Source: Pontiellaceae bacterium B1224 | GTDB lineage: Bacteria > Verrucomicrobiota > Kiritimatiellia > Kiritimatiellales > Pontiellaceae | Reading direction: 5' to 3' | DNA length: 64,000 nucleotides | Assembly: GCA_029432815.1 (NCBI GenBank) | Contig: JAROBA010000028.1 | Span: 1-64,000, forward strand | Notes under the pieces: model-generated | Told to the model about the DNA's origin: nothing | The model's database searches: none | The model's input: only the letters and a program-made list of their open reading frames with translations | Shown here: piece after piece, positions 4,520 through 41,610 of the stretch | Layout of the letters: each line of letters starts with the position of its first letter | Numbering within the stretch: the first letter of the stretch is position 1 | Position numbers and translations under genes: made by a program

Positions 4520-5011
4520 TTATCCGTTGAAAATGAAAAACTTGCGCGCGGCATAATTGATCAGGGTGGTTGATATCGCCTTGGCCACATAGGACGAGGT
4601 GGTTGACAAACCGAACCACTCGATCAGAACAGCCCCAATCAATACCCCCAGCCCGACACTGATGCCCGACACCAGATAAAACAGTCCCAGCTCTTTCCAG
4701 CGATTATGCTTCCCGGACTTGAACACAAACAGGATGTTCAGAATATAGGCGGTCATGTTCGAAACCACAAAGGCGATGGCATTGCCCAGAATAAAATTCA
4801 ACGTGCGAATACCTTCCGGAACCGGCTCAACCTGCAGATGAAAAATACGCACTAAAAAATCACCTTCCGTCAATGCAGGAAAGACCAACCACGCGATAAG
4901 GAAGAACGTTATCATGTCGGTGGCCAATGCCATTCCGCCGCACATAGAGTACTTTAGGAATTGAATGCCCGGATGATCCTTCTCTAGCAGAATTTTTTTC
5001 AACGCAACCAT
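4520..5011 (-). CDS. GtrA family membrane protein
   Basis: A 163-residue integral membrane protein with about four hydrophobic helices and the GtrA-type layout: the Phe-Leu-Lys-Tyr start of helix 1 near residue 18, an Asn-rich turn before helix 3 (Asn-Met-Thr-Ala-Tyr), and a C-terminal Asn-Tyr-xx-Arg-Lys-Phe-Phe-Ile-Phe motif. GtrA proteins are thought to help move undecaprenyl-linked sugars across the inner membrane or to assist glycosyltransferases in cell-surface polysaccharide synthesis. No glycosyltransferase is adjacent. It converges with the prepilin gene. A palindrome copy sits in the 56-bp gap at 4501-4515. Confidence 0.85.
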   Translation of the reverse strand: MVALKKILLEKDHPGIQFLKYSMCGGMALATDMITFFLIAWLVFPALTEGDFLVRIFHLQVEPVPEGIRTLNFILGNAIAFVVSNMTAYILNILFVFKSGKHNRWKELGLFYLVSGISVGLGVLIGAVLIEWFGLSTTSSYVAKAISTTLINYAARKFFIFNG

Positions 5012-5109
5012 GAGTCTAAAGTATCTGAGGCCACGTGAATTAGCAAATTTGAACTCAGGTTAACTCTGAGAACCACCATTTTTTCATGGTCTAAAGGAGC
5101 CCTGAATGC

Positions 5110-5115
5110 TATCTT
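5110..5115 (+). promoter_or_regulatory. Possible -10 box of the 6S-like RNA
   Basis: TATCTT lies 7 bases before the inferred RNA 5' end. No clear -35 box was found. Confidence 0.25.
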
Positions 5116-5121
5116 GTAACC

Positions 5122-5350
5122 GAAGTTAGGAAAGGAACAAAGCCCTACGTGGTTCGAGTAGATAGGTATCTCCTCTTACCCAATGATTCAAATTAGGGAG
5201 CTTAACTTTCGGCCCGGTGCCCGACGCCCTTGAATAAGGGAGGGTTCTGGAAACCGGCTTGATTCGCGCCCACATCTATTACTACGGTGATAGAGGTTCG
5301 CCTGACAAACGGCCAACGCGGGGTTCCTTTTCCTGACTTCATTTTTTTTG
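5122..5350 (+). ncRNA. ssrS: Candidate 6S RNA
   Basis: The 474-bp gap before rarA has no reading frame but folds as one long, interrupted rod. A closing stem pairs AGGAAAGGAAC (5128-5138) with GTTCCTTTTCCT (5323-5334). A terminal arm pairs GCC(C)GGT (5212-5218) with ACCGGC (5253-5258). It is capped by CCCTT/AAGGG (5227-5231 and 5236-5240) around a GAAT loop. A T-run at 5342-5349 follows the closing stem, as in an intrinsic terminator. Length (about 215 nt), an open central region between two helices, and position fit 6S RNA, the regulator that mimics an open promoter and binds RNA polymerase. Known 6S genes often sit next to the 5-formyl-THF cyclo-ligase gene (ygfA) or rarA, and both follow here. 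Exact ends are estimates. Confidence 0.6.
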
Positions 5351-5485
5351 TGTCGTGAAAAGTGACGGTTGAGTCGTGATTACATTTGACTCAACTACTT
5401 CTCCGGTTCGAAAAATTCCCTCACGCCTCGCATTGCCTCAACTTTCAAATTTCAGTTCACCTGATTTCACGGTATCTTCCTTCGT

Positions 5486-6802
5486 ATGGACCTTTTTGAA
5501 GATCAACCCAAACCGAACCGAGTGAAGGCTGGAGCCGGAACGGCCCCTTTGGCAGCGCGCATGCGACCGAAGGCGCTGGATGAAATGATCGGTCAGGAAC
5601 ATATTCTGGGTGAAAACAAGCTCCTGCGCCGCGCCATTGAAGCCGACCGCATGAGCAGCATTATTCTCTACGGACCTCCCGGTTGCGGAAAAACCACATT
5701 AGCGGAAGTCATTGCCAAAACCACCAACCGTCGGTTTGAACGAACCAGCGGTGTACTGGCGAACGTTTCCATCCTTCGAAAACTGCTCGAAGGTTCCAGC
5801 CATTGGAAAAAAATGAACGGACAGGATACGATCCTGTTTATCGATGAGATTCACCGGTTTAATAAATCGCAGCAGGATGTCCTGCTGCCCTATGTGGAGA
5901 ACGGCGATATCATCATGATCGGAGCCACAACACACAATCCGTTCTTCTTCATCAATACTCCGCTGAATTCGCGGTCCCAGATTTTTCAGCTGCAGCCGCT
6001 TTCAGAGGAATCCATTGTTCAGGTTCTGGAACGTGCACTGACAGCCCCTGCCGGATTAAATGGACTGGTTACGGCGGCACCCGCAGCACTGGAATATCTG
6101 GCCGCCGTTTGTGAAGGCGACGCCCGCCGCTCGCTGAACGCACTGGAAATTGCGGCACTGACCACCCCGCCCGATGAAAGCGGGATGGTTCATTTAACAA
6201 AGCATGAAATCGAAGAGTCGGTTCAGAAAAAAGCAGTCAACTACGATCACGACGAAGACGAGCACTACGATACCATTTCAGCCTTCATTAAAAGTGTGCG
6301 GGGCTCCGATCCGAATGCGGCCGTCTACTGGCTGGCCAAAATGCTGTATGCCGGTGAAGACCCGCGTTTCATTGCGCGACGATTGATCATTCTCGCTTCC
6401 GAAGATATCGGCAATGCGGATCCGCGTGGAATTACGCTGGCGGTTTCGGCGATGCAGGCGGTGGAGTTTATCGGCATGCCCGAAGCGCGCATCACCCTTT
6501 CTCAGGCCACCACCTATCTGGCCTGTGCTCCCAAAAGCAATGCCGCCTACGTTGCAATTAATCAGGCTCTGCATGATATTGAGCATGGCCGCACCCTGCC
6601 CGTCCCGAAACATCTGCAAAGCGGACCGAAACCGGATAAAGGGGATGTAAAGTATGAATATGCTCATTCCGGAGAAGACCATTTTGTGGATCAGGAATAT
6701 GTGCCCACTGATAGAATTTACTACGAGCCAAGCAATCAGGGCTACGAAGACACCATGCGCAAACGGATCGAATATTGGAATTCGTTGAGGAAAAAGAAAT
6801 AA
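5486..6802 (+). CDS. rarA: Replication-associated recombination protein A (RarA/MgsA AAA ATPase)
   Basis: A 438-residue AAA+ ATPase related to clamp loaders and RuvB that acts at stalled replication forks. Walker A is GPPGCGKT near residue 57, Walker B is FIDEIHRFN near 112, and a sensor 1 region follows (IGATTHNP). The C-terminal half has the MgsA-type helical and tetramerisation domain (EDIGNADP and the YEYAHSGEDHFVDQEY stretch typical of the family). The length matches the family. It is followed after 7 bp by the folate cyclo-ligase gene, probably one transcript. An internal palindrome copy lies at 5794-5808. Confidence 0.95.
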   Translation: MDLFEDQPKPNRVKAGAGTAPLAARMRPKALDEMIGQEHILGENKLLRRAIEADRMSSIILYGPPGCGKTTLAEVIAKTTNRRFERTSGVLANVSILRKLLEGSSHWKKMNGQDTILFIDEIHRFNKSQQDVLLPYVENGDIIMIGATTHNPFFFINTPLNSRSQIFQLQPLSEESIVQVLERALTAPAGLNGLVTAAPAALEYLAAVCEGDARRSLNALEIAALTTPPDESGMVHLTKHEIEESVQKKAVNYDHDEDEHYDTISAFIKSVRGSDPNAAVYWLAKMLYAGEDPRFIARRLIILASEDIGNADPRGITLAVSAMQAVEFIGMPEARITLSQATTYLACAPKSNAAYVAINQALHDIEHGRTLPVPKHLQSGPKPDKGDVKYEYAHSGEDHFVDQEYVPTDRIYYEPSNQGYEDTMRKRIEYWNSLRKKK

Positions 6803-6809
6803 ACAAAAT

Positions 6810-7364
6810 ATGACCAAACAACAGATCCGCAAGGAAATTTCCGCCAAACGAAAGGTTTTGGATTCCCAATGGGTAGAAACTGCCAGTCAAAAACTGGTCG
6901 ACCGTTTCCAGACATTGGAAGAGTTTAAAACCTCGGACGTCATTGCGCTTTATAAATCAATTGGGAGCGAGGTGAATCTCGATCCCCTTTTTTCCAACTG
7001 CTGGAAACAGGGAAAACGCACCTGTATACCGGTTTTTAACGAGCAGCTGCGGATCTATGAAATGTCGGAAATCACAGATGCCACGCAGTTTCGCATCGGT
7101 CATTACGGGATCCGTGAACCGCTGGACCTGCATCTGCTGAACCGGTCGGAAATTGACCTGATTGCTGTGCCGGGAGTGGGGTTCGATGCAAAAGGAAACC
7201 GGCTGGGTCGGGGTGGCGGATATTATGATCGGATGCTTGCCGGTTTCACTGGATGCTCAGTGGGCATTGCCTTCGATTTTCAACTTTTACCGGAGATCCC
7301 AGCCGATCCCCACGATCAGCGTGTCCGGGCCATCGTTACTGAGACAAAATATAGTAAAGTTTAA
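6810..7364 (+). CDS. fau: 5-formyltetrahydrofolate cyclo-ligase
   Basis: A 184-residue enzyme that converts 5-formyl-THF to 5,10-methenyl-THF with ATP, returning the storage folate to one-carbon metabolism. The N-terminal start (Lys-Gln-x-Ile-Arg-Lys) and the conserved C-terminal block VPGVGFD...GRGGGYYDR (about residues 116-140) are clear. Adjacency to a 6S-like RNA recalls the ssrS-ygfA pair of proteobacteria. Two exact palindrome copies fall inside the gene (6906 and 6992). The second has T as central base, the only exception to the G/C rule. Confidence 0.93.
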   Translation: MTKQQIRKEISAKRKVLDSQWVETASQKLVDRFQTLEEFKTSDVIALYKSIGSEVNLDPLFSNCWKQGKRTCIPVFNEQLRIYEMSEITDATQFRIGHYGIREPLDLHLLNRSEIDLIAVPGVGFDAKGNRLGRGGGYYDRMLAGFTGCSVGIAFDFQLLPEIPADPHDQRVRAIVTETKYSKV

Positions 7365-7502
7365 AACGAACGTTAGACAAATCCTCGTCTCTCGGTGTAA
7401 ACTTTGCGTTCAAAAATAAAGGGACGGTACTGCCCGGATGATGCGTCTCCACTGCATCGGGCTTTCCATGGAGTACGGTTCAACATGAAACGGAGGTTCA
7501 CC

Positions 7503-9065
7503 ATGGATTATGCAAGTTACAGCGGCTTTGAATTTATCCTCAGTATCGGGTTTCTGGTGCTGGGCTTCTTTTTTCATGCCTACATCACAAAAACCAATGC
7601 AATTGCGGCTGGCAAACAGGCCAAAGCCATTTTGGCCGAGGCCCAGAAAGAGTCGGAAATTGTCCGCCGCGAGGCAAAAGTACAGGCGAAAGATGCCATT
7701 CTGCGGGCTCGGGAAAATTCGGAACGCGAGCTCACTGCACAGCGCAAAGATATTCTGGATCTGGAAAAACGGGTGGTTGAACGGGAGAAAAATCTCACCA
7801 GTAAGCTCGAAATGCTCAACAACAAAGAGATGCAGCTGACCGGTCGCATGACCGAAATCAGCGAACATAAGGAATCGCTGCGCGAGAAACAGCGCGAGCT
7901 CGACACTCTGATTAAGGAAGAATCCGTTCGTGTGGAAGATGCCGCCGTTCTCTCCAAAGCAGAGGCTCGAAAATTGATTATGAAGCGGATGGAGGACGAG
8001 CTTCAGCAAGAGGCCAACGGGCTGGTTCGGCACATCCAGAAAGAAGCGAAAGAAAACGCAAAGAAAAAGGCCCGTGAAATTGTGGCAACCGCCATACAGC
8101 GCTATGCCGCCGAAACCGTCTGCGATATTACCACCAGTCAGGTTTCTCTTGAGAGCGACGATATTAAAGGCCGGATCATCGGCAAAGAAGGCCGAAATAT
8201 TAAGTCCTTCGAATCTGAAACCGGCGTAAACGTGCTGATTGATGAAACTCCGGAAGTGGTCGTTCTTTCCAGCTACGATCCGATCCGCCGCGAAGTGGCC
8301 CGCGTGGCCCTGCAGCGGCTGATTGAAGACGGCCGTATCCACCCGGCCCGTATTGAAGAAACCGTTGCGAAAGTCCGCGAGGAAATCGACGACACCATTC
8401 GCCACGCCGGCGAGGAAGCCCTCTTCGGGCTCGGTCTGACCGGTGTGGCTCCGGAATTGGTGCACACGCTGGGTAAACTTAAATTCCGCACGAGCTACAA
8501 GCAGAATGTACTGGATCATTCCATTGAAACAGCGCACATCATGGCCATGATGGCCGGTGAAATGGGGCTCGATGCGAAGATTGCGAAACGCGTTGGTATC
8601 TTCCACGATATCGGCAAAGCGGTAGACCATGAAGTTGAAGGCGGACACGCTGTTATCGGCGCCAATCTGATGCGAAAATATGGTGAAGACCGCATTGTCT
8701 ATAATGCTGTGGGCTCGCACCACGAAGATATGGAACGCGAAAGTATCTATGCGGTTCTGTGCGATGCTGCCGATGCCCTCACCGCAGCCCGTCCGGGAGC
8801 TCGTGCCGAAACCACGGATCTGTATCTCCACCGTCTGGAACAGATCGAAAAAATTGCCAGCCAATATGCCGGAGTCAAAAGCAGCTACGCGGTACAGGCG
8901 GGCAGAGAAATCCGAATTATGGTTGAACCTGAAAAGTTCAACGATCATGGTACATCACTTCTCGCAAAAAATATTGCGAAACAGGTCGGCAAAGAAGTCA
9001 AAATCCCAGGTACGGTACGTGTGACGGTTATTCGGGAAACACGCTGCGTGGAATATGCAAAGTAG
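7503..9065 (+). CDS. rny: Ribonuclease Y
   Basis: A 520-residue membrane-anchored endoribonuclease that starts decay of many mRNAs. An N-terminal helix (about residues 8-28) is followed by a long charged coiled coil to about 200, then a KH domain (GRIIGKEGRNIKSFE) and an HD domain (IFHDIGKAVDHEVEGGH). I place the start at ATG 7503, which is 7 bases after GGAGG (7491-7495) and gives the usual short N-terminus. In-frame upstream codons reach to 7404 but add an uncharacteristic tail. An imperfect hairpin (7432-7472) lies just upstream. The gene is monocistronic or leads into upp after about 100 bp. Confidence 0.95.
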   Translation: MDYASYSGFEFILSIGFLVLGFFFHAYITKTNAIAAGKQAKAILAEAQKESEIVRREAKVQAKDAILRARENSERELTAQRKDILDLEKRVVEREKNLTSKLEMLNNKEMQLTGRMTEISEHKESLREKQRELDTLIKEESVRVEDAAVLSKAEARKLIMKRMEDELQQEANGLVRHIQKEAKENAKKKAREIVATAIQRYAAETVCDITTSQVSLESDDIKGRIIGKEGRNIKSFESETGVNVLIDETPEVVVLSSYDPIRREVARVALQRLIEDGRIHPARIEETVAKVREEIDDTIRHAGEEALFGLGLTGVAPELVHTLGKLKFRTSYKQNVLDHSIETAHIMAMMAGEMGLDAKIAKRVGIFHDIGKAVDHEVEGGHAVIGANLMRKYGEDRIVYNAVGSHHEDMERESIYAVLCDAADALTAARPGARAETTDLYLHRLEQIEKIASQYAGVKSSYAVQAGREIRIMVEPEKFNDHGTSLLAKNIAKQVGKEVKIPGTVRVTVIRETRCVEYAK

Positions 9066-41409: not shown

Positions 41410-41423
41410 ATTTCTAATATTTA

Positions 41424-41525
41424 ACATTCGGAGCGGCGTGAGGGAACTGGCCCTGTGATCGTCCGGCAACCTGGAAAATCGGTTAAGGTGCCTAGGCCAG
41501 GCTTTGCAGCGCAAAGCAACGATGT
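41424..41525 (+). ncRNA. SAM riboswitch (S-box/SAM-I type)
   Basis: The leader of metY shows the S-box core: TGAGGGAACTGGCCC, then TCCGGCAACC, then AAGGTGCC in the right order. P1 can form between ACAT(T)CG (41424-41430) and CGATGT (41520-41525). The hexamer CGATGT recurs at 41548-41553 after a GTGTTCCC-type hairpin, so an alternative P1 exists. TGAGGGAAC in the core (41439-41447) is also fully complementary to GTTCCCTCA at 41565-41573, a possible competing fold for the ligand-free state. Expected effect: high S-adenosylmethionine lowers expression of metY and metX. Confidence 0.88.
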
Positions 41526-41610
41526 GTTCCCGAAAAGGGAAAATACACGATGTCTTTCCTCAAAGTTCCCTCATAGATCCGCGTATTATTAATAAGGAAA
41601 GGAAAGACTG

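Follow-up and report, generated by a model that had tools for sequence, protein, structure and literature searches.

Does the non-coding stretch in front of rarA in a Pontiellaceae genome encode the organism's 6S RNA, or does its rod-like fold have another origin, such as a leader of rarA, a polymerase-binding RNA of another type or a chance region rich in hairpins? 6S RNA, one of the well-known small RNAs, mimics an open promoter and sequesters RNA polymerase. The window, i.e. the whole stretch of 64,000 nucleotides analysed, comes from Pontiellaceae bacterium B1224 and, judging by rarA similarity, its source genome is a Pontiella-like member of Pontiellaceae, Kiritimatiellales. A preliminary description had proposed a 6S RNA at 5122-5350; with a probability of about 0.95, we consider that 5121-5350 on the + strand is the 6S RNA (SsrS) of this organism, with its own promoter, a rod mimicking an open promoter and a terminator formed by the base of the rod. 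No report of a 6S RNA from Kiritimatiellia was found in the literature searched, the main surveys of 6S distribution lying outside that search.

Match to the 6S family and gene neighbourhood

The model of the Rfam 6S family, RF00013, aligns with the candidate across all of its 187 positions (40.9 bits, E 8.3e-7 with 701 nt searched), and in the whole genome of 5.4 Mb it gives a single match at E <= 10 (E 1.5e-6). Thus the covariance-model search proposed in the preliminary description returned a full-length match that is unique in the genome. Routine annotation misses this RNA because its score falls short of the RF00013 gathering score of 46.4 bits, and with default settings the Rfam scan of the window reports nothing above threshold except a SAM riboswitch (RF00162, 54.2 bits) at 41421-41528. 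Within the genus the cut-off is exceeded by just two homologues, those of genomes G290 (50.7 bits) and G304 (49.8 bits); as these two pass, the sub-threshold score in the window is a matter of sensitivity and not of structure. Further Rfam matches near the 6S RNA (snoRNA, miRNA and others) are chance matches with E > 2. A second covariance model, R1, was built from 19 family homologues; its match (Table 1) leaves the earlier coordinates nearly exact. R1 finds 6S in 25 of the 28 genus genomes. We regard the RNA with high confidence as a new, formerly sub-threshold member of a known family.

A rod shape alone would also be compatible with an RNA that binds polymerase in another manner, such as the core-binding Ms1, which is structurally related to 6S (PMC9130861). 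However, the RF00013 match is full-length, Ms1 families are absent from the matches up to E 10, and both the bubble sequence and the synteny with rarA and ygfA are of the 6S type; an Ms1-like RNA is extremely unlikely here.

The gene neighbourhood agrees with the earlier description, which had taken the stretch as non-coding and had placed rarA and the folate cyclo-ligase downstream. No open reading frame of at least 60 aa was found on either strand in 5012-5485, and the order at the locus is 6S-rarA-ygfA/fau-rny, all on the + strand. Between 6S and rarA lies an inverted repeat, GTTGAGTC-N12-GACTCAAC, at window positions 5368-5395, which is not apparent in relatives.

Table 1. Features of the 6S locus, in window coordinates
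Feature	Position	Strand	Remarks
GtrA-family membrane protein	4520-5011	opposite to 6S	upstream of 6S; PF04138
-10-like box TATCTT after TGC	5110-5115	+	extended -10-like TGCTATCTT at 5107-5115; predicted 6S start about 5121-5122
6S RNA gene (ssrS)	5121-5350	+	about 220-230 nt; RF00013 match 5139-5328; R1 match 5121-5350, 250 bits
Outer stem, 5' arm GAAGTTAGGAAAGGAA	5122-5137	+	pairs with 5324-5340; helix 1, 95% paired, two pairs changed on both sides
Closing stem, 5' arm GCCCTACGTGGTTCG	5142-5156	+	helix 2, 99.6% of cells paired; fits Rfam consensus CCCUgcgguGUUCG
Predicted product-RNA template	5165-5184	+	product 5'-AUUGGGUAAGAGGAGAUACC; predicted start opposite U5184
Central bubble, 5' strand (open-promoter mimic)	5182-5194	+	unpaired in consensus and in Rfam
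Apical (terminal) arm	5196-5271	+	helices 5-8, 92-100% of cells paired
Central bubble, 3' strand	5272-5297	+	can form own hairpin ACATCTATTACTACGGTGATAGAGGT in single-sequence fold
Closing stem, 3' arm CGGCCAACGCGGGG	5310-5323	+	RF00013 alignment and covariation of 19 homologues
Outer stem, 3' arm (5324-5340), and U-tract (5342-5349)	5324-5349	+	probable intrinsic terminator from the base of the rod
-10-like box TATCTT of rarA, separate	5473-5478	+	7 nt before ATG
rarA/mgsA (replication-associated recombination protein A)	5486-6802	+	PF12002 MgsA_C, 2e-62
ygfA/fau, 5-formyltetrahydrofolate cyclo-ligase	6810-7364	+	TIGR02727, 164.7 bits against a cut-off of 84.9
RNase Y (rny) ORF	7404-9065	+	3' of fau

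Fold and compensatory changes

The closed rod with a terminal arm described earlier is recovered: 5122-5350 folds into one at -82.5 kcal/mol (z = -3.48; none of 200 dinucleotide shuffles was as stable), with the apical arm paired throughout the family (Table 1), and the T-run noted at its end consists of eight T at 5342-5349. Folding energy by itself is weak evidence, because the inner part at 5137-5330 is not unusual energetically (z = -1.1, with 23 of 200 shuffles folding at least as well), and it was dropped as the main argument. The unremarkable energy of the inner rod would fit a functionless intergenic region that is rich in hairpins by chance. This explanation is refuted by the covariation and the conserved position, since compensatory changes and a fixed place are kept at both the genus-wide and the class-wide level, and its probability is practically nil.

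Covariation was assessed in 19 Pontiellaceae homologues, 69-93% identical (mean 78%) over 240 alignment columns. Their RNAalifold consensus is one rod of 55 pairs, with canonical pairs in 97.0% of the pair cells; changes on both sides affect 13 pairs, against 6.1 in shuffles, and 28 cells, against 8.9. When the partners were slid by 1-3 columns as a control, pairing went down to 40-59%, a comparison biased towards the consensus structure in that it was derived from the same alignment; the independent Rfam match has the same topology. The outer and closing stems, the apical arm and both helices that border the bubble towards the closing stem contain such both-side changes, and the closing stem, central bubble and apical arm of a 6S RNA are conserved by compensatory change. 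The outer stem keeps 12-17 pairs in all 19 homologues, and the stem with its T-rich tail is seen again in the family. In the consensus structure the 3' half of 5272-5297 pairs with 5170-5181 instead of forming its own hairpin.

Signals around the RNA and the predicted product RNA

In nearly all Pontiellaceae homologues a TANNNT box, mostly as GCTA or GGTA, stands 6-9 nt before the outer stem. Upstream of rarA, TATCTT or a close variant occurs 7-11 nt before the ATG in most Pontiellaceae, including three loci (L069-L071) that have no 6S gene adjacent. These -10-like boxes are proposed from their conservation; a scan with the sigma-70 consensus yielded no + strand promoter and a single marginal terminator.

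The signals bear on the question whether the rod belongs to rarA as its 5' leader, i.e. an attenuator or a riboswitch-like element, and is not a separate RNA. The two genes share a strand and are usually less than 100 nt apart, with a median gap of 36 nt at 53 loci. In E. coli, read-through from ssrS into the next gene, ygfA, is known, which makes some co-transcription of 6S and rarA plausible. However, the -10-like box of rarA is kept even where 6S is not adjacent, and rarA has for this reason a likely promoter of its own; the 6S RNA terminates in a stem with a U-tract; at one locus (L115) the 6S match lies 2.2 kb away from rarA; and the full-length match is to the 6S model, with none of the ligand-sensing families matched. 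From these sequence features a role as rarA leader only is disfavoured and appears very unlikely. The arrangement suggests that 6S and rarA are two transcription units, with read-through from the former to the latter possible, and from the position of the box rarA probably has no leader or almost none.

For the 6S RNA, the start of the product RNA was placed by the RF00013 alignment to the known start region of E. coli. The predicted product begins with AUUGGGUAAGAGG in 10 of 19 homologues and with AUUGGG in 18 of 19, so that GGG falls at positions 4-6, and it has AA at positions 8-9. Distant 6S RNAs are described as sharing GG at positions 4/5 or 5/6 of the product RNA, with AA at 9/10 in lactic acid bacteria (PMC8414754). 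As far as the sequence tells, the template thus lies beside the bubble in the 5' strand, and its product carries GG at the expected place.

By analogy with known 6S RNAs, the RNA would be expressed, bind polymerase, yield a product RNA and act according to growth phase as follows. It would start from a promoter of its own at about 5110-5122, fold into a long rod whose central bubble imitates an open promoter, and end at the terminator made of the base of the rod and the U-tract. When growth slows, it would, by homology, bind the holoenzyme of RNA polymerase with the housekeeping sigma factor and compete with promoters. Once nucleotides are back, the polymerase would copy the 5' strand of the bubble from U5184 into the short product RNA, which would open the 6S structure and release the polymerase.

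Occurrence in Kiritimatiellia and comparison with known 6S RNAs

According to R1, the genome of the window has one convincing 6S copy; a second one was sought and rejected, the remaining matches being at most 28 nt long with E > 1. In 3 of the 28 genus genomes R1 gave no match at the expected place, and two of these three are less than 90% complete. One further genus genome has a second, weaker 6S-like match (G300:C300:7740-8008, 31.4 bits), which could be a paralogue or contamination.

At the class level, 80 rarA loci from Kiritimatiellia were compared. R1 matches the + strand ahead of rarA in 53 of them (E <= 0.003, within 2.3 kb), in 52 of the 80 at most about 230 nt upstream on the same strand; a further match, at L081, is clipped by a contig end and stands outside the 53. 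At two loci whose RarA is 82-83% identical (L069, L070) no 6S match was found upstream of rarA, and their close relatives have one. Downstream of rarA, most of the 6S-rarA loci carry the cyclo-ligase and usually RNase Y too, so 6S-rarA-ygfA/fau, in most cases with rny behind it, is a recurrent gene order across Kiritimatiellia. The neighbourhood with rarA and ygfA expected of a 6S gene is therefore conserved, and the RF00013 match, the compensatory changes and this class-wide synteny together uphold the 6S interpretation made from the letters.

R1 gave no direct match to E. coli ssrS, and the homology is therefore bridged to undisputed 6S RNAs via other Kiritimatiellia, in which R1 and RF00013 independently coincide: L108 (92.8 Rfam bits), L082 (66.6) and L115 (65.4). 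Over the phylum, RF00013 has a match at E <= 0.01 in 148 of 289 genomes, 101 of them above the gathering score. These results fill a gap in annotation within a genus where only two of the 6S genes pass the standard cut-off, and R1, with its 19 sequences and supported structure, together with the 6S-rarA-ygfA synteny rule offers a means to find 6S in Kiritimatiellia. Since the same 6S gene is present in the cultured Pontiella sulfatireligans F21 (L060, 3716-3947) and in Pontiellaceae bacteria B12219 and B12227 (L057, L059), the predictions on transcription and product RNA are open to testing.

The part of the analysis most worth following is a boxA-like element upstream of other Kiritimatiellia 6S genes, which may be newer than the 6S finding itself. 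In the 130 nt upstream of each of 48 distinct 6S loci elsewhere in the class, the commonest 7-mer is GTTCTTT, found in 35 of 48 loci and, as G[TC]TCTTT, in 36; it is placed 27-69 nt ahead of the 6S core. In Markov shuffles of these regions the motif appeared 1.0 times on average and at most 5 times. The boxA-like GTTCTTTNNCA precedes 6S at L003-L009, L013, L016, L020, L022, L023, L030, L032, L034-L037 and many of L082-L136, with TGTTCTTTGACA, TGTTCTTTACCA and TGTTCTTTCACA as typical forms. Many of the genomes concerned carry similar sequences, e.g. TTGTTCTTTGACAACAG, in their 16S leaders, and the window's own genome has TTTTGTTCTTTGAAATCAG. In the two genomes that were informative on this point, TGTTCTTTNNCA is rare genome-wide, with 4 occurrences in G056 (3.9 Mb) and 12 in G012, which include 6S in both and tmRNA in G012; in the more AT-rich G121 it is not distinctive (18 times against 11 for the reversed control). 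The motif was absent from eight phylum 6S loci tested outside Kiritimatiellia, and none was seen upstream of Pontiellaceae 6S genes, the window's included.

As a side observation among 17 Kiritimatiellia genomes, a boxA-like core stands before RNase P RNA in three (L168, L169, L177) and before tmRNA in four (L178, L180, L188, L193), mostly 14-17 nt before the RNA. Non-coding RNAs lay outside a published survey of boxA targets, as the survey itself says (PMC5725501). We tentatively suggest, at somewhat under even odds, that Kiritimatiellia 6S, joined in some genomes by tmRNA and RNase P RNA, could be under Nus-factor (boxA) control like rRNA, and that Pontiellaceae may have lost the element for a promoter directly abutting 6S. 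If real, the element would link a global regulator of polymerase to the rRNA antitermination machinery.

Compared with other Kiritimatiellia 6S RNAs (L108, L115, L082), the RNA in the window has the same core and the same place before rarA-fau-(rny), whereas the others mostly score above the Rfam threshold and mostly have the boxA-like element with a longer upstream leader, both of which Pontiellaceae 6S genes lack. As in Firmicute 6S-1 RNA (bsrA of B. subtilis, lactic acid bacteria), there is linkage to rarA and a predicted product RNA with GG and, downstream, AA. The earlier statement that 6S RNAs often neighbour ygfA or rarA holds: lactic acid bacteria and B. subtilis have rarA next to 6S (PMC8414754), and in E. 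coli fau comes after ssrS; in lactic acid bacteria, however, rarA lies upstream of 6S, whereas in the window rarA follows 6S directly, both on one strand. With E. coli ssrS and RF00013 the match is full-length and takes in the closing stem, the template helix, the central bubble and the apical arm; ssrS has the closest architecture of the product-RNA start, its template ...AGCCGAU corresponding to ...ACCCAAU in the window, and the cyclo-ligase follows downstream in both. Unlike in E. coli, rarA is placed between 6S and fau, and unlike ssrS and RF00013, the 6S RNA in the window has an extra outer stem of 12-17 bp that runs directly into the U-tract.
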